Shown here one piece after another: positions 4,460 to 53,857 of a DNA stretch of 54,080 bases (the stretch's first letter is position 1; every line of letters begins with the position of its first letter). The position numbers were made by a program, and so were the translations under genes. The notes beneath the pieces are model-generated. The model made no database searches, was not told the DNA's origin, and saw only the letters and a program-made list of their open reading frames with translations. The stretch spans positions 1-54,080 of the forward strand of contig CANRKX010000004.1 in NCBI GenBank assembly GCA_947631325.1, given 5' to 3'. Source of the DNA: an uncultured Clostridia bacterium. Its GTDB lineage: Bacteria > Bacillota > Clostridia > Christensenellales > Borkfalkiaceae.

Positions 4460-5275
4460 ATGTTGACTATCATTACCGATTCATCGAGCAATATCACGGC
4501 GGAGCAGGCTGAAAGGTTGGGGATAATCGTCATGCCGCTCACAATATCGTTCGGCGGGAAGGAGTTTCGCGACGGCATAGACATAGACAGCGACGGCTTT
4601 TACAAAATGCTGATGTCGACGAAGGAGTTTCCGCACACCTCGCAGCTCTATGAGGAGCAGGCGGAAGCGGCTGTCCGAAAGGCTAAAACTAAGACGGACG
4701 AGGTTCTCATTATGCCCATTGCTTCCGCGCTGTCGGGGTCGTTTGAGAGGTGCGAGCGGGTGGCAAAAAGGTATGAGGGGGTATACGTTTACGACACAAA
4801 ATGCACCTCTGCAATGCTCGCTATGCTCGTCTTAAAGGCGGCGCAAAACGCCCGAAAACCCATGGGCGAGGTAATAAAAATTCTCGACGCCTTCAGACCC
4901 AAAATCAAGCTCTTCGCCGCCCTCGACACCATAGAATATCTCGCAAAAGGGGGAAGACTCTCAAAGCTCTCCGCGCTCCTCGGCACGGCGCTTAAAATAA
5001 AGCCCGTCATAACTATTGACGGCGGGGGAAAGGTGGCGCTCGTCTCCAAACAGTTCGGAATGGCGAAGAGCATAAATTATATAGCTGAAAGGGCGGCTAA
5101 GGCTGATATAGATTATGGCGAGCCCGTCTATCTTCTCTACACCGCCGACGACAGAAATTGCAGCGAATTAATCAGAAAAACGGGTATAAAATTCTCCGAA
5201 AAGTGCAATATCTGTCCCGTGATAGGGACGCATATAGGTCCCTTCGCGGCGGGATTGGTCTATGCCGAAAGATAA
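4460..5275 (+). CDS. DegV family fatty-acid-binding protein
   Basis: A 271-residue protein of normal DegV length. It opens with the family signature MLTIITDSSSNI, followed by GIIVMPLTISF and the HTSQ loop (about residues 54-60) that closes over the fatty-acid carboxylate. The second half carries the conserved EYLAKGGRLSK block. DegV/FakB proteins bind a fatty acid and present it to the FakA kinase for phospholipid synthesis; no FakA gene is in this window, so partner and ligand are inferred. It is a single-gene unit with its own promoter. A clear ribosome site is lacking; ATG 4460 is the only start that preserves the first beta strand. Confidence 0.9.
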   Translation: MLTIITDSSSNITAEQAERLGIIVMPLTISFGGKEFRDGIDIDSDGFYKMLMSTKEFPHTSQLYEEQAEAAVRKAKTKTDEVLIMPIASALSGSFERCERVAKRYEGVYVYDTKCTSAMLAMLVLKAAQNARKPMGEVIKILDAFRPKIKLFAALDTIEYLAKGGRLSKLSALLGTALKIKPVITIDGGGKVALVSKQFGMAKSINYIAERAAKADIDYGEPVYLLYTADDRNCSELIRKTGIKFSEKCNICPVIGTHIGPFAAGLVYAER

Positions 5276-46806: not shown

Positions 46807-47625
46807 ATGGAAAAATTCACTGTAAAAACCTGCAAAACCGTGCGCCTTACATTCGGTATAACACTCTCCGTGTATACCGTCATATTGGGCGCGCTGTTTA
46901 TTTGGCAGATACTCGATATCTACCTCGGCGGGGTGGCGGCGGGGCTTACTTCGCCCTTCGACTATATGGACGTCAAGTCGCGCACGCGGGGCATTTTGGC
47001 TGCGCCTTTCTGGATATGGATAGCCTTAATCTTTGTCGGGCTCATCCTCTTTGAAATATTCCCCGTAAAGCAAAAGCGGCAGACTATGGACGACCCCGTC
47101 TACATATTAAACCGCCTTAAAAAGCGCCTTCCCAAGCAAGTTTCTGAAGATTTGAAAGACTCTTTCGACTTCGTGAAGCGGGAGGAGAGGACGCTTTTAA
47201 TCCTCAAAGTTATATGCCTTTTGGCGGGCGTCGCGGGCTGTATTTATTCTGTTATTTACCTTGCAACCCCCTCCAACTTCCCCAACGTCGATAAGACTGC
47301 GGATATGTTGAACCTCGCCCTGCACGTCTTAACTTTCGCGGCGGCGGTGTTTATAATCGCCTGCGGCGTGGCGTATTTCGAGGCGTTTTCGGCTAAAAGA
47401 CAGTTACCTTATGTAAAGAAATTGATTGCGGGAACAAAGCCCCCCGCAGTCACCGAGAATAAAATTTCGGCGTTTTTTGACAATAAATACTTCATATTGG
47501 GCGTCCGCATCGCCGTACTCTGCGTGGGAGTGGCGTTTATTATAGCGGGCGCGTTGAACGGCAGCGTGAGCGAAGTATTCAACAAGGCGATAAGAATCTG
47601 TACGGAGTGTATCGGTCTTGGCTAA
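46807..47625 (+). CDS. Membrane protein with C-terminal CD1871A-type CXXC motif
   Basis: A 272-residue protein with about five membrane segments (residues 12-38, 67-90, 129-150, 170-193, 230-250). It ends in KAIRICTECIGLG, with the CXXC cysteines at 265 and 268. This tail matches the CD1871A family, small membrane proteins that are generally encoded next to a polyferredoxin and a TlpA-like thioredoxin, as here. In the usual short form the protein has about 60 residues; here the motif is carried at the end of a much longer membrane protein. The cysteines lie just after the last membrane helix, well placed for thiol exchange with the fused thioredoxin domains downstream. It overlaps the next gene by 8 bases. 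Confidence 0.7.
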   Translation: MEKFTVKTCKTVRLTFGITLSVYTVILGALFIWQILDIYLGGVAAGLTSPFDYMDVKSRTRGILAAPFWIWIALIFVGLILFEIFPVKQKRQTMDDPVYILNRLKKRLPKQVSEDLKDSFDFVKREERTLLILKVICLLAGVAGCIYSVIYLATPSNFPNVDKTADMLNLALHVLTFAAAVFIIACGVAYFEAFSAKRQLPYVKKLIAGTKPPAVTENKISAFFDNKYFILGVRIAVLCVGVAFIIAGALNGSVSEVFNKAIRICTECIGLG

Positions 47626-49855
47626 GATATTTTCGCGAATTAAAGGCGGCTTTTGCGCCGTCGGCAGATGGATTAAAAATCACGCCCCCACGCGGCGCAG
47701 AATAATCCAGCTGTATGCCGCCCTTCTCACAAACGCAAATATAAAGGGCTTCGTTTCGGGCAGAATTTACACGGGCGACACCAAAAATATTTGCGCCCCC
47801 GGGCTCAACTGCTATTCCTGCCCCGGTGCGGTCGCGGCATGTCCCCTCGGCGCCCTCCAAAATTCCCTCGGCTCCTCGGGCACGACGACGCCCTATTACA
47901 TATTGGGAATTATCGCCCTGTTGGGGCTGTCGCTCGCAAGGACGATCTGCGGCTTTTTATGCCCCTTCGGGCTGGCACAGGAACTTGTATATAAGGCAAA
48001 GACGCCCAAACTCAAAAAGAGCAGATACACCCGCCTTTTGAGCTATTTAAAATATGTATTGCTCGTCGCGCTCGTCATTGCCGTGCCCCTTATCTATCAC
48101 AACGTGCCCGCATTCTGCAAATATATCTGCCCTGCGGGAACGTTTGAGGGGGCGGGAGGGTTATTATCCAACGGTGCGAACGCCGACTATTACTCAATGC
48201 TCGGGTATCTGTTCAGTTGGAAAGCCGTGCTTCTCGTCTGTTGCGTGGTCGCGTGTGTGTTTATCTATCGCGCGTTCTGCCGCTTTATATGTCCGCTCGG
48301 CGCCATTTACGGCTTCTTCAACAAGATATCGCTACTCGGCGTCAAGCTCGAAAAGAGTAAGTGTATAGACTGCGGCGCGTGCGTGGCGACCTGTAAAATG
48401 GATATTCGGCACGTCGGCGACCACGAGTGTATAAACTGCGGCGAGTGTATCCCCGTCTGCCCAACAAAGGCGATAAGTTGGAAGGGCTCGAAGATAGTTT
48501 TGCAAGTGGCGTCCTTCAACATTTCGGGAATTCCGAGCGAGCAAAAGGCGGATATTTCGGCAATATTGTCGGGCGGCACATCCAAAGTCGCCGCACCAGC
48601 AAATTCAGTTCAATCCTCAATCTCAGAGAGCGGAATTGAAGTAGAGAGCGCACCCGCCGATACCCCCGAAGTTGTCACCGTAGATACAGCGCAATCCGCG
48701 CCAAAAGATAGCGAAATTGAAGCAGAGACCCATTCTGATAATCTCTCAAAGCAGACGGAAGGGGGAGAGAACGAGCTTCAGGCGGCAATCAAAAAGGTAA
48801 AACGCCGCGGACTCATCATGGAGATAGCCGCGTGGGTGCTTGCGGCGGCGGTGCTTATAACCGCGCTCGTCTACTACAACGCGATAGCTCCCTCGCCCGT
48901 CACCCAAAACGTGACCCTTCCCCAATTTACGCTTGCGGCGTATGACACGGCTTACAGCGGCGAAACGTTTTCCTATCCCGACGATATCGACCCCGACAAG
49001 CCCCTCGTCATGGCGTTCTGGAGCACGCGCAACGAAAACAGCGCGCTGTATATAACGTCCTTTGCCGAGTCTGCGGAAAAACTGAAAGACAGCGCAAACT
49101 TCATCGCCGTCCACGTCAGCAACAGCGACGACAGCGCGACGGTGCAGGCAAAGATAGCCGAGAACGGCTGGCAAAATCTCGCTATCCCCATATTGCAGGA
49201 TACGGCGGAGCTCGACCTCTATTCAAAGTCGGAGGGGGGCGGCGCCTTCCCGACGACGGTGTTCGTCACCATCCACGGCGAAATAAAGGTCAAGTCCGAA
49301 AAGCCGTTGACCCAAGAGGAAATTTCGGGGCACATAGACGACACGGTTTACTCCACAATCTATCGCGAGGGCGACAAACTGCCCGTAATTAAAAATATCA
49401 AGACCTATGAAAGCTCGTTCAAGGGGCAAACGTACTCCACGGACGAGGCGCTCGGCAAGGTGCTCGTCATAAACTTCTGGTATGTGAGCTGCGGTCCGTG
49501 CGTGGAGGAGCTGCCCTATTTCAACGAAGTGCAGAAGGAGTTCGGCGACAGTATAGTTACCCTCGCCATCCACTCGGACAACGGCGAGCAGCCCCAGCCC
49601 TTTATAGATAAGGTCGATAAAGACCACAACAAGGAAAGCTGGTCGGATTATTCGATAATCTTCGGGCAGGATAAGAGGTCTGAGAACTTCAAAAAGGACG
49701 GCTATATATACGGAATTTTGGGCGGCACCGGACCCTATCCCATGACCGTCATAGTAAACGCCGAGGGCTATATAACAAAGGTAATGCTAAGCTCGGCGAT
49801 AAACAGCAATAAGGACGACTTGCGCCCCGCCATATTGAAAGCCCTTGCAGGCTGA
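47618..49855 (+). CDS. NapH-like polyferredoxin fused to two TlpA/thioredoxin-like domains
   Basis: A 745-residue membrane protein. Residues 55-80 contain CYSCPGAVAACPLGAL (Cys65, 68, 75) with Cys59 before it. Membrane segments alternate with CGFLCPFG, CKYICPAG and CRFICPLG motifs, followed by two ferredoxin-type 4Fe-4S sites (CIDCGACVATC, CINCGECIPVC) near 248-290. After a linker rich in S, E and P, a further membrane helix (about 405-425) leads to two extracytoplasmic thioredoxin-fold domains. The first (about 440-580) has AFWSTRNENS where a CXXC would stand, so it lacks the active cysteines; the second (about 590-745) has WYVSCGPCVEEL with Cys625 and Cys628. It should carry electrons across the membrane to thiols outside. 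Start is TTG 47618, overlapping the previous gene. Confidence 0.85.
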   Translation: MAKIFSRIKGGFCAVGRWIKNHAPTRRRIIQLYAALLTNANIKGFVSGRIYTGDTKNICAPGLNCYSCPGAVAACPLGALQNSLGSSGTTTPYYILGIIALLGLSLARTICGFLCPFGLAQELVYKAKTPKLKKSRYTRLLSYLKYVLLVALVIAVPLIYHNVPAFCKYICPAGTFEGAGGLLSNGANADYYSMLGYLFSWKAVLLVCCVVACVFIYRAFCRFICPLGAIYGFFNKISLLGVKLEKSKCIDCGACVATCKMDIRHVGDHECINCGECIPVCPTKAISWKGSKIVLQVASFNISGIPSEQKADISAILSGGTSKVAAPANSVQSSISESGIEVESAPADTPEVVTVDTAQSAPKDSEIEAETHSDNLSKQTEGGENELQAAIKKVKRRGLIMEIAAWVLAAAVLITALVYYNAIAPSPVTQNVTLPQFTLAAYDTAYSGETFSYPDDIDPDKPLVMAFWSTRNENSALYITSFAESAEKLKDSANFIAVHVSNSDDSATVQAKIAENGWQNLAIPILQDTAELDLYSKSEGGGAFPTTVFVTIHGEIKVKSEKPLTQEEISGHIDDTVYSTIYREGDKLPVIKNIKTYESSFKGQTYSTDEALGKVLVINFWYVSCGPCVEELPYFNEVQKEFGDSIVTLAIHSDNGEQPQPFIDKVDKDHNKESWSDYSIIFGQDKRSENFKKDGYIYGILGGTGPYPMTVIVNAEGYITKVMLSSAINSNKDDLRPAILKALAG

Positions 49856-50453: not shown

Positions 50454-53417
50454 TCAGTTAGCCTTATCCTTCCAAGCCGTCGTGCCATAGTAGTGGTAGT
50501 AGAAGGCGAACGCTTCCCAAGCTCTCGTATCAACGCCGCAGTCGTCGTCCGACTGACTTGTCATGAATTCGCTTATTATTCTCACAAGCTCGTTGTTGGC
50601 TTCAACCATTCCGTACAGCGGGTCGTCTTCTTCCTTGCCCTCTTTGGATTGATTGAAATATTTCAGCATTGTCGCTTGATTTTCCCCGAACATGTTGTTT
50701 TCAACATAGTATTGGAGGGTGTTGAAGGTGGGACCGTTCATCATGCAAGGTCTGGTGAAGCTGATATACATTACCGAACCTTTGTCGTTGCCCGAACCCA
50801 CAACGTTGTAATACTGCGCCGTTGTCTCCGAGCCTTGAACGGTTACGGGAACTGCAAGGTAGTAGGTGTGGGTCATGTCGATATTGCCCTGTTCGTCGAT
50901 GTCCGCCGTCCATAAGCCTTCGCCCGTCGAAGCGATTTCAAGATTCCAATATTCCTCGGCAAGATATTCCACTTTTACTTTATATTTGCCGGGGTTGTCG
51001 TTCAAGCCGCCCGTCGTGAGCTGTGCGTATACGCTTTCTCCCTCATCGAGATAGACGAGGAGTTTGAAGTTGGGGTAGTAATCGGTTTTAAACCTCTCCA
51101 TGCCCAAGGGCTCGTCACATTCCGCAATGTAGTTGTAATCTTCATCCCATACGAATACGCTGGGGTCTATCTGACGGGTGGTGTCGCGGTCGGAAGATTC
51201 AATGGAATATACGCCCGCGTCTGTCGCCGTAAACTTATAGAACTGTCCGCCGAGCTGATTTCTCTTCGTGGAGGTGGTTGTGTTGATATCTGTCAACGTG
51301 TTAAGTTCCAACTCTTTTGCGAAGGTGATTGTAAGCCCCTTGGCGGGATTTTCGTATGAAAGACATATGCCGCCCTCGGGGTGTTCGGTGTTCATGGGAT
51401 AGTGATTGAAGTAAGAGCATATCTCCAACCACGAATCCTCTGTAACAGCCTTGGTATCGCCGAACTCGCTCTCGTTATGGACCTTATTTACAAACGCCGC
51501 GAGCGCGTCCTTCATGTCTTGGTTTACGGGTATAGAGGTGCCGCCGAGCGCTTCCTGCGCATAGTAGCCGTCGATTATCGCCGTCGTGAACCTCTTGTTA
51601 TCGTCCGCGTTATCCGTAAGGCTTATCAGAATGGGCTGTTGATTATCTTCGCTCGAAGTGATGGCGTTGCTGAACTTGTAGTAGCAGATAAAGTATACGG
51701 ATTTTTTGACGTTGCCGCCCTCGGTGTTTTGAAGTACATATTCGGGTATGCGGTAATCCGTCCAGACTGTTATATCCTGCAAATCTACCATAACGAGGGG
51801 TCCGCTTTCACTGCCCACGTGGTAGAAGCCGTCCGTATTGTTTAAAACAACTTCGGTGTTGTCCTTTCTCTTGAGCGCTCCGCTGTTGTCAAAGCTGAAA
51901 AAGCTTCTCTCAACGTCGGTCGCCGAAGTTATGTCGCTCTCGCTGAACTTGTGCACCTTCAAATGCCGCAACATTACGCTCTCGCCGTCAATCGTTATGT
52001 CCGCACTCTTGACGTACATTATGGTGAGCTTGATGACCGTCTGCCTGTTGGCGGTGTACAGCGTCACGGTCTGCCAACCTTCGCTCGTGCCCGTGAATAC
52101 GGTGTCATAGTTGTAGGTGTCGTTGATTATAATGTACAGCGCGTCTCTCGATTCGGTGTCGTAATTAATCTGTATGGACAGCTCGTCGCCCTCTTCAAGC
52201 GATATGCTCGTGTGCAGGGTGGAGAAGGTGGCGTCCGTTCCCTCGCCTATGTTGGAGGGTTGCAGATATGTTCCGTCGCTTCCCACGATAAAGGGCCATG
52301 AAAGCTCGCTGTCGTCGGTCTCCGTCTCGTTGGAGTAGGTGAGGTCGAGCCCGTCGGTGAAAGCCGCGTTTATCGCCGCGTCGTCGGGCATCGTTATGCC
52401 TTGGGGAGGAGCTTTGTAGTCAACCGTGCCGTCGCCCGTCTCGCCGCCCGTCTCGCCGCCGCTGACGTTCTGCGTGTAGTCGTCGCCGAGATATCTCTCT
52501 ATTAAAGCCGTCCACGACCTCTCTTCGGGTATCGAGCCCGTGTGCCTTGAACATATAACGCCGAACCTGTCTACAAATACGGTGGTGGGGTAGCTCGTCA
52601 CGCCGAAGCGGGAGGTGAGGGCAATGGAGTCAAGAGCCATATAGAAGTCCAGCCCCATATTGTTTTTGTAATTTCTTACCAAAGATACGGTGTCGCCCTG
52701 ATTGGGGTCGCCGAGCGCGATAACCGCAACGTCGCTTGTGTAATTAGAGTATGCGCTGTTGAGCGCGGGGAATTCGGAAGCGCAGGGTCCGCACTGGGTG
52801 TAGAAGAAGTTTAAAATGACAAGTTCCTTGTCCTCGAGAACTTCCGAAAGGGTTATATCAATGTCGTCGCCGTCGGTCACGGTGAAGTCGTACATTATGT
52901 CGCCCGTGCCGTAAATATAGTTGACGGGGATAGTCTGATCGATGACGAATGACGAGAAGCGCGAAGTGACGTTCTTGTGCTCGTCGTCGATAACCTTCAC
53001 GATATCGTCGCCCTCAAAATATCCCGCGGGCAAATTTTCGTACGTTATGCTATACGAACCCGAGTTGATGGGGAAAATCACCTTGCCGCTCGAAGAAGAC
53101 ACGCCCGAAGTGGTCACGCCCGCCGCGTTCTCGAGGGTGACGCGCATGCCCTTTAAGGGTATGCCGCCCAAAGACAGGGTGTTGACGATATAGCTGTTCT
53201 CCTCGTCGACAAAGTCGTCGGGGTTGATGCCGTGGGGATAATAGAAGTCGTTCACGCCGCCGGGGTTGTTGGGGTCGAAAGTGCCGTCGTCGGCAATGCC
53301 CCCCTCGGGAGTGCGGAAATTGGGATTGCTTTTGCTGCATGCCGCAAGCCCGAAAGCCATACATACGGCAAGGCAGGCGGATAATACACATAAAAACAAA
53401 ACTTTGAATTTTGACAT
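50454..53417 (-). CDS. Large exported TlpA-like thioredoxin lipoprotein
   Basis: A 987-residue lipoprotein: lipobox GLAAC with Cys27. Residues about 75-145 form a carboxypeptidase-regulatory-like beta module (GIPLKGMRVTLENAAG). Residues about 170-310 are a TlpA/AhpC-type thioredoxin fold with the active site QCGPCASEFPAL (Cys209, Cys212) and the cis-proline loop GVTSYPTTVFVD. A GGETGGETGDGT linker leads to about 670 residues of beta-rich modules, one (about 720-830) resembling a PPC-type domain (GQFYKFTATDAGVYSIESSD). It probably reduces or shuffles disulfides outside the membrane, fed by the polyferredoxin-thioredoxin fusion encoded convergently. Ribosome site GAGG; it leads the two-gene minus-strand unit. 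Confidence 0.85.
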   Translation of the reverse strand: MSKFKVLFLCVLSACLAVCMAFGLAACSKSNPNFRTPEGGIADDGTFDPNNPGGVNDFYYPHGINPDDFVDEENSYIVNTLSLGGIPLKGMRVTLENAAGVTTSGVSSSSGKVIFPINSGSYSITYENLPAGYFEGDDIVKVIDDEHKNVTSRFSSFVIDQTIPVNYIYGTGDIMYDFTVTDGDDIDITLSEVLEDKELVILNFFYTQCGPCASEFPALNSAYSNYTSDVAVIALGDPNQGDTVSLVRNYKNNMGLDFYMALDSIALTSRFGVTSYPTTVFVDRFGVICSRHTGSIPEERSWTALIERYLGDDYTQNVSGGETGGETGDGTVDYKAPPQGITMPDDAAINAAFTDGLDLTYSNETETDDSELSWPFIVGSDGTYLQPSNIGEGTDATFSTLHTSISLEEGDELSIQINYDTESRDALYIIINDTYNYDTVFTGTSEGWQTVTLYTANRQTVIKLTIMYVKSADITIDGESVMLRHLKVHKFSESDITSATDVERSFFSFDNSGALKRKDNTEVVLNNTDGFYHVGSESGPLVMVDLQDITVWTDYRIPEYVLQNTEGGNVKKSVYFICYYKFSNAITSSEDNQQPILISLTDNADDNKRFTTAIIDGYYAQEALGGTSIPVNQDMKDALAAFVNKVHNESEFGDTKAVTEDSWLEICSYFNHYPMNTEHPEGGICLSYENPAKGLTITFAKELELNTLTDINTTTSTKRNQLGGQFYKFTATDAGVYSIESSDRDTTRQIDPSVFVWDEDYNYIAECDEPLGMERFKTDYYPNFKLLVYLDEGESVYAQLTTGGLNDNPGKYKVKVEYLAEEYWNLEIASTGEGLWTADIDEQGNIDMTHTYYLAVPVTVQGSETTAQYYNVVGSGNDKGSVMYISFTRPCMMNGPTFNTLQYYVENNMFGENQATMLKYFNQSKEGKEEDDPLYGMVEANNELVRIISEFMTSQSDDDCGVDTRAWEAFAFYYHYYGTTAWKDKAN

Positions 53418-53487: not shown

Positions 53488-53593
53488 GGGATAAGAGCGT
53501 CGGATTTATATTTTTGCGATAAAAATTTTGCATAGGGGCATAAATTTATTATTATACATCGCCCGCCCTATCTTTCACATAACATAAAATCCG

Positions 53594-53622
53594 TCATAGC
53601 CCGACAAAGAACGACATAAAAT
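53594..53622 (+). promoter_or_regulatory. Putative sigma-E promoter of spoIIID
   Basis: TCATAGC (53594-53600), a 14-base spacer, and CATAAAAT (53615-53622). Sigma-E promoters use about KHATATT, 14 bases, CATACANT, so the match is 5 of 7 and 7 of 8 with the correct spacing. spoIIID is a known sigma-E gene in Bacillus, which supports the reading. The start codon is 32 bases downstream. Confidence 0.5.
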
Positions 53623-53653
53623 AATAATACTTTTATTGCTCGGGGGAGAGAGT

Positions 53654-53803
53654 ATGCAGGACTATATTTCGGACAGGGTGATAAGGGAGGGGCTGTACGT
53701 AATCGAGACGTTCAGCACCGTCCGCGCCACGGCGGAGTACTTCAAAATAAGCAAATCCACTGTGCATATAGAGGTAACATTACCGAACGTTTTGTGTGGG
53801 TAG
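53654..53803 (+). pseudogene. spoIIID: spoIIID, 5' portion only (mother-cell regulator, interrupted)
   Basis: The first 38 codons match SpoIIID, the mother-cell transcription regulator that acts with sigma-E and sigma-K. MQDYISDRVIREG, a YVIETFSTVRATA helix and ISKSTVH line up with the conserved start and with the first part of the helix-turn-helix. After His38 (base 53767) the similarity stops; the next 11 codons and the TAG at 53801 are foreign. Full-length SpoIIID has about 90 residues. The cut removes part of the recognition helix and the C-terminal basic region that also contacts DNA, so the remnant should not bind DNA. Ribosome site GGGGGAG and promoter are intact, so the damage is recent or reversible. 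Confidence 0.9.
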
Positions 53804-53821
53804 TGGAATAAAACGACCAAA

Positions 53822-53857
53822 ACGAGGCAAAATCAAGTGTTTTGCTTCGTTTTTCTT
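53822..53857 (+). terminator. Terminator just inside the right-hand element
   Basis: An 11-base stem with one wobble pair (ACGAGGCAAAA / TTTTGCTTCGT) and a 7-base loop is followed by TTTTCTTT. It would stop transcripts from spoIIID entering the element. Confidence 0.75.

Follow-up and report, generated by a model that had tools for sequence, protein, structure and literature searches.

A mobile element of a widespread family interrupts the sporulation gene spoIIID in gut Clostridia

Intervening elements of sporulation genes are reported from sigK, spsM, spoVFB, gerE, and yabG, these being the targets named in the excerpted text of one report (PMC10747680). In skinCd, the sigK element of Clostridioides difficile, the large serine recombinase (LSR) CD1231 is expressed constitutively from a sigmaA promoter, and the directionality factor CD1234 is under the control of sigmaE and SpoIIID (PMC5025042). 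The gin element of Bacillus cereus, which resides in gerE, is a non-phage element with restriction genes and is excised by the serine recombinase GirC together with GirX (42 aa) (PMC5595907). The yin element of Clostridium botulinum, in yabG, encodes an LSR and a putative factor, and its integrated and circular forms coexist in culture (PMC10747680). A 2022 survey of LSRs found that diverse recombinases converge on a single conserved coding site (PMC10083194); unlike the elements described below, the clusters in the surveyed portion of that text target a Mg-chelatase/ATP-dependent protease and a prolyl isomerase, and the string “spoiii” has no occurrence in its main text, although its supplementary tables may include some of the LSRs treated here (PMC10083194). 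No report of an interrupted spoIIID was found in the open-licence literature, and the original prediction, too, was aware of no described intervening element in this gene.

The DNA analysed here (the window, 54,080 nucleotides) is the entire contig C4 of an uncultured Clostridia genome (G000; 1.46 Mb, 78 contigs). Judged from sequence comparison, an integrated mobile element belonging to a widespread family interrupts spoIIID in this genome, and we consider it probable that the element is excised in a programmed manner in the mother cell; indirect support for excision of this kind comes from the promoter of a small gene within the elements, from undecayed spoIIID halves, and from duplicated 5' halves. 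The spoIIID elements resemble skinCd in that an LSR element occupies the gene of a mother-cell regulator and, outside the genus of the window genome, in that the LSR and a small gene have the same two kinds of promoter. They differ from skinCd, as described in the excerpted report, in targeting spoIIID rather than sigK, in spanning many genera, in an attP that lies inside the LSR gene, in their varied cargo, and in a small protein of another family, for which no sequence match was found. With gin they share restriction genes, a location in a small mother-cell regulator gene, and a serine recombinase accompanied by a small protein, but the gene and the hosts are others, and gin has three recombinases. 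They are like yin in placing an LSR and a putative factor in a sporulation gene, but yin is prophage-like, is reported from one strain, and occupies a different gene. The original prediction called the locus exactly the situation of skin, which overstated the likeness, because the family spreads horizontally and its cargo is varied.

Table 1. Features around the left junction of the element, in positions of the window.
Feature	Position	Strand	Basis
Putative sigmaE-like promoter of spoIIID, GTCATA-N16-CATAAAAT	53593..53622	+	By eye
5' part of spoIIID, codons 1-38, including the core	53654..53766	+	PF12116 1-41; TIGR02844 1-41
Recombination core CA (attL)	53765..53766	+	Common to attL and attR; in-frame join; centre of the L141 phage attP repeat
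Element side of attL, without a stop in the LSR frame up to its end (YRGNITERFVWVVE, then stop); predicted severed C-terminal tail of the LSR	53767..53811	+	Frame translation of attLs; phage contigs L140-L143
Hairpin followed by a T run, possible terminator	53821..53857	+	By eye
Start of first cargo gene (MKEYKKRIADSILQ...), interrupted by the contig end	54039..54080	+	Sequence

Codons 1-38 of spoIIID (53654-53767) match PF12116 (E 4e-12) and TIGR02844 (E 4.3e-11; 43 bits, under that model's full-length cut-off), and the homology ends there; a ribosome-site-like GGGGGAG (53642-53648) precedes the gene, and the -10 sequence CATAnAAT is also found 5' of spoIIID in several members of the genus. 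Beyond codon 38 the DNA is foreign up to the end of the contig, 314 bases past the core, and because the window is the whole of C4, the assembly break falls within the element. The first cargo gene (Table 1) probably encodes an AAA ATPase like that of the first gene in G117, G059, and G040, a likeness judged by eye. Just 5' of spoIIID, the window encodes two large proteins (47618-49855 and 50454-53417) with iron-sulphur or lipoprotein-like starts and stretches that appear thioredoxin-like by eye.

The remainder of the gene, which the original prediction had expected to the right of the element, is present in the same genome on contig C65 (5,494 bases), where positions 1010-1150 match PF12116 over model positions 34-80 (E 2.8e-18). 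As had also been anticipated, an LSR is found at this end: its open frame lies directly 5' of the spoIIID 3' half in a different frame, runs off the contig start, and covers only residues equivalent to 184-517. A gene for a protein MSKLLGIDVGSTTVK... lies 3' of spoIIID on C65, and the same kind of gene is found in the genus loci that were read downstream. Joining C4 up to 53766 to C65 after the core (1019-1020) restores the frame, giving an 88-residue SpoIIID of 138.9 bits, for which the reference is the 129-156 bits of the 28 intact genes behind the model. Rejoining at CA yielded a full-length, in-frame SpoIIID in 10 of 10 joins, the nine besides G000 scoring 112-152 bits (lowest in L081 and L080). 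Both halves in one genome, and the same junctions on single contigs of other genomes, bear out the claim that spoIIID is split by an insertion. The middle of the element was not recovered from the G000 assembly, in which a PF00239 search gave only an LSR on contig C27 (L052:11978-13810; 610 aa), a distant relative that is ~33% identical to the LSR of G017 over 251 residues.

The dinucleotide CA within codon 38 is common to the 5' and 3' junctions, and by this comparison attB is the stretch of conserved spoIIID codons for K-S-T-V-H-K-D. The original prediction had placed the junction at 53767; codon 38 holds, but the exact point does not, as the exchange falls on the CA at 53765-53766 and the T at 53767 is already element DNA. 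When the element arm of attL is translated in the LSR frame, it is open for ~15 codons, and 15 of 16 attLs end in a tail of the ER(F/L/Y) type, the arm of L129 having a stop after five residues; the LSR is therefore predicted to read through attP in the circle. A scan of viral contigs gave eight LSR relatives, of which four are full-length (L140-L143), although L141-L143 are near copies, such that the phage set amounts to two independent cases. In all four, an uncut LSR runs through attP, with the tails LERFIWLIS and IERLIWRIK, and the attP of L141 is a perfect 8-base inverted repeat centred on CA; searches of the viral contigs with attP and attL DNA patterns gave 0 matches for both. After integration, the LSR ends at the host's own TAA (ACA TAA) in 65 of 76 loci and continues out of frame into spoIIID in 11. 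These comparisons place attP inside the LSR gene, and integration thus removes a conserved tail of about 15 residues from the LSR. Neither an attP within the recombinase gene nor a spoIIID gene rebuilt by duplication occurs in the excerpted descriptions of known elements.

Across 93 genomes of the genus, PF12116 matched 83 and had no match in 10. Full spoIIID with no separate half above the cut-off was found in 68, halves only in 11 (G000, G004, G005, G017, G040, G052, G059, G117, G121, G126, and G130), and a 5' half together with a full copy in four (G044, G045, G047, and G053). The LSR (E 1e-80) is encoded in seven genomes (G000, G005, G017, G052, G117, G126, and G130), all of them split, and in 7/7 it adjoins the spoIIID 3' half (attR); this distribution (7/11 split genomes vs. 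0/82 others) gives a Fisher value of 3.5e-8 for genomes that are not independent. The LSR is absent from the assemblies of the split genomes G004, G040, G059, and G121; the assemblies of G040, G059, and G121 show the left junction only, and that of G004 has bare ends only, including a bare 3' half. Contig C22 of G004 ends with ...CTACCGTACA and C19 begins with ACACAAGG, both stopping at the core with a 3-base overlap; a de Bruijn assembly of mixed empty and filled sites would break in this way, which is a hint of excision, and a mixture of strains would have the same effect.

Complete elements are available on single contigs. In G017, both spoIIID halves lie on one 304-kb contig and flank an element of 21.4 kb; in G117, the halves are 25.8 kb apart; and in the isolate Schaedlerella arabinosiphila DSM 106076 (L129, 6.3-Mb contig), they are about 5.3 kb apart. 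In the G017 element, the gene at attL encodes an AAA/DUF4143 ATPase, and that at attR encodes the LSR (523 aa). Between them lie genes for a helicase, an RNase III-like protein, type I restriction-modification proteins, and a protein with sigma-70 region 4, together with small genes; a tyrosine-recombinase-like gene stands among the hsdS-like ones. Names that lack a Pfam match were given by eye. The G017 LSR has Resolvase (PF00239, E 3.6e-33), Recombinase (PF07508, 1e-25), and zinc-ribbon (PF13408, 5.9e-13) domains. On inspection by eye, neither the complete elements of G017 and G117 nor six short ones showed recognisable phage structural genes; a relaxase candidate in G017 had no Pfam match, and no transfer genes were recognised in the 5-kb elements. 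Within the G017 element, the inverted hsdS-like genes around the tyrosine-recombinase-like gene (L037:8803-11886) look like a phase-variable type I specificity switch.

Searching 84,980 genomes (one per species) with the LSR alignment gave 203 relatives, of which the best 80 were analysed. The spoIIID 3' half follows the LSR directly in 76 of these best 80 of 203; in 76/76 it is undecayed, reaching model position 86-90 of 92, and the junction codons are His-Lys/Met-Asp (H-K/M-D). Of the loci in which no 3' half adjoins, L079, L089, and L114 have other sequence next to the LSR, and the contig of L065 ends 6 bases beyond the core. Cultured Blautia, Extibacter, and Schaedlerella are represented among the hosts, of which examples are Blautia schinkii, B. 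glucerasea, B. massiliensis, Extibacter muris, [Ruminococcus] torques ATCC 27756, Angelakisella massiliensis, Agathobaculum butyriciproducens, and Schaedlerella arabinosiphila. Pairs of LSR genes that are 92-99% alike mostly have host flanks that are unalignable or align in short pieces only, and where at least 1 kb of flank does align, the flanks are 67-84% alike. The exception is the pair L097/L101 (LSR 97.2 vs. flank 93.5), in which the element was perhaps shared by descent. Near-identical LSRs in distant hosts show horizontal spread, and most insertions look recent by this comparison, so that intact halves alone are little proof of programmed excision.

It is against this background that the elements could be read as ordinary mobile DNA, for which spoIIID is a convenient conserved target, with excision that is rare and not tied to sporulation, and with carriers that sporulate poorly until the element exits. 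LSRs more than 92% identical in hosts whose flanks are unalignable or differ by 16-33% are as expected under such a reading, as are the mobilisation genes in some elements (such as Mob_Pre in L098, E 1.4e-50) and the phage contigs with the same LSR. So is the use of one site by three LSR lineages, as described for LSRs on other conserved genes in the excerpted survey (PMC10083194). The 76 loci without a decayed 3' half speak against it, although recent insertion would explain them too. Given in addition the mother-cell-like promoter before the small gene and the repaired spoIIID genes of hosts in which the LSR is absent, both described below, we regard ordinary mobility of this kind as unlikely.

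The two further lineages became apparent in an even sample of the class (196 genomes, 148 with SpoIIID), in which partial spoIIID was found in at least six genomes (G172, G182, G184, G250, G278, and G000), G278 having only a 3' part, at a contig end. In the single-contig genome G250, the spoIIID halves are 64.7 kb apart, with the LSR at the left end. Identity to the G017 LSR is about 50% for G250 and G182 and about 33% for G172 and G184; by these comparisons, three LSR lineages converge on the same spoIIID codons. The G250 element (L156-L159, 64.7 kb) has a 17-base end sequence common to both ends; its cargo, named by eye, comprises conjugation-like genes as well as a gene for a Cas9-like protein of 1037 aa. 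In named phages, the LSR had one match only, at 52%, on a 6.4-kb faecal phage record, and in plasmids there was none at E 1e-60.

The LSR is accompanied by a small core gene, encoding a family of ~55 residues (K-L-N-Y-R-F-H-N-P-N...), on the LSR strand and 157 bases to 8.7 kb 5' of the LSR. It was identified in 68/80 loci (best 80 of 203 LSR relatives), including 30/30 in which at least 9 kb upstream of the LSR is available, and the phage loci L140, L141, and L143 have it as well. Within the genus it occurs in 5/93 genomes (G005, G017, G052, G117, and G126), all LSR-bearing; the contigs of the other two LSRs start in or at the LSR. For the protein, no relative was found in Pfam, NCBIfam, or PDB sequences, and we regard it as a candidate directionality factor for the main LSR lineage only. 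At E 1, neither G250 nor the available stretches of G172, G182, and G184 yielded a family member, and other LSR lineages would thus need another factor.

The pattern T[AT]TTT-N12-YCATA precedes the small gene in 45/68 upstream regions, with a spacer of 12 in all 45. These 68 include repeats (for example, G017 twice, and phage L141-L143); of the 47 distinct regions, 30 have the pattern (vs. 11/1033 control ORF upstreams), and 17 do not, including those of phage L140 and G005. A three-part form with GGACAA occurs in 22/47 distinct regions vs. 0/1033 controls (28/68 vs. 0/941 undeduplicated). Because the pattern was framed after the sequences had been seen, and because related elements are not independent, these odds in favour of a promoter are flattering. 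The pattern resembles sigmaE- or sigmaK-dependent promoters, of the mother-cell type, and GGACAA fits the SpoIIID consensus, WWRRACARNY. On sigmaE genes, SpoIIID acts as a repressor as well as an activator, and a leading G is favoured in its strong sites (PMC517825, in the excerpted text). As SpoIIID could act only after excision, a SpoIIID box would more likely turn the factor off.

Outside the genus type, 44/70 loci have a loose two-box sigmaA promoter upstream of the LSR vs. 187/956 controls, and 38/70 vs. 139/956 have an exact TATAAT. In the genus elements, including the nearest relatives of that of G000, the LSR begins where the small gene ends, such that both may be made together. A leader, GTAACAGA, is located shortly downstream of the LSR -10 region, with little variation in position; it is exact in 53/78 loci and resembles the attP arm GTAACAAAATAGAACGG. 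The leader may be a SpoIIID site; common descent or LSR autoregulation explains it equally well.

Four genomes of the genus (G044, G045, G047, and G053) retain a truncated spoIIID 5' half with its attL tail in addition to a full spoIIID, and have no LSR at E 1e-80. The full gene is to the right of the truncated half on the same contig in G053 (24 kb) and G047 (9 kb), and on another contig in G044 and G045. The promoter and 5' half of this full gene match those of the truncated copy at 87-100% per 30-base step; measured from the core, the gap-free copy is about 120 (G045, G047), 180 (G044), or 240 (G053) bases long, and the likeness extends somewhat further with gaps and then ends. This duplication of promoter and 5' half would be explained by selection for a functional spoIIID once the LSR had been lost, the order of events being reconstructed.

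Returning to programmed excision, we propose that the LSR alone would integrate the element into the spoIIID attB, and that the ~55-residue protein, expressed in the mother cell from the sigmaE-type promoter, would act as the recombination directionality factor. The element would leave only the doomed mother-cell chromosome, where SpoIIID would be made, and the forespore would retain it. The LSR would be expressed from its own sigmaA-type promoter in many hosts outside the genus, and directly after the small gene within it; in some hosts, the LSR would have been lost and spoIIID rebuilt by duplicating the promoter and 5' half. A fuller version, which is possible but which we hold as doubtful, would make spoIIID the home of widespread mother-cell-excised elements with two-gene control: sigmaE would turn the factor on, the element would exit, and newly made SpoIIID would bind the GGACAAAG box over the factor start and turn the factor off, the LSR itself also differing between the free and integrated states by loss of the ~15-residue tail.

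Sporulation genes of the hosts bear on whether the insertion is dead, that is, whether sporulation has been abandoned and spoIIID is a decaying pseudogene. A SpoIVA match was found in 61/93 genus genomes and none in 32/93, many of which keep SpoIIID; this suggests that some members of the genus have partly lost sporulation, and to that extent favours a dead insertion. G000, however, encodes a 509-residue SpoIVA frame and two sigma-factor frames without stops: one, of sigmaK type and 235 aa, scores 302 bits (cut-off 298.65), and the other, labelled sigmaE-type, has 232 aa and at 258 bits falls short of the sigmaK cut-off. In addition, both spoIIID halves are open and rejoin in frame, which makes a dead insertion very improbable. 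The insertion is in spoIIID and not in sigK; the sigK-type gene of G000 has an unbroken frame. SpoIVA showed no significant link with the split (8/11 split genomes vs. 54/93 overall, p 0.35), and a literature search for spore reports on carrier isolates gave nothing usable. That C4 and C65 were each mis-joined to unrelated DNA is scarcely credible: C4 does end 314 bases past the core in an assembly of 78 contigs, but the same split junctions occur on eight single contigs (G017, G117, L080, L081, L082, L098, L104, and L129, the last from the S. arabinosiphila isolate), which refutes an artefact for the family and agrees with the view that this is not one genome's assembly error.

spoIIID is thereby a further target gene, situated upstream of sigK in the mother-cell cascade and occupied in many gut Clostridia. 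The comparable halves, recombinase, small partner, empty sites, and rebuilt genes constitute a natural experiment on mobile DNA in sporulation genes, and the family yields pairs of an LSR and a candidate directionality factor with a known core. Furthermore, a gut genome in which spoIIID is missing or truncated does not necessarily belong to a non-sporulating strain.

Two further loci are of note. In L116 (RGIG4678), an LSR and a spoIIID 3' half occur in a bin that carries the label of the non-sporulating Parabacteroides, which is probably a binning error. In Candidatus Faeciplasma pullistercoris (L121), two near-identical spoIIID 3' halves (2229-2372 and 4861-5001) lie 2.6 kb apart. The first of them follows the LSR, and an ABC-transporter-like gene separates the two; the arrangement possibly represents a stacked or decayed second element.
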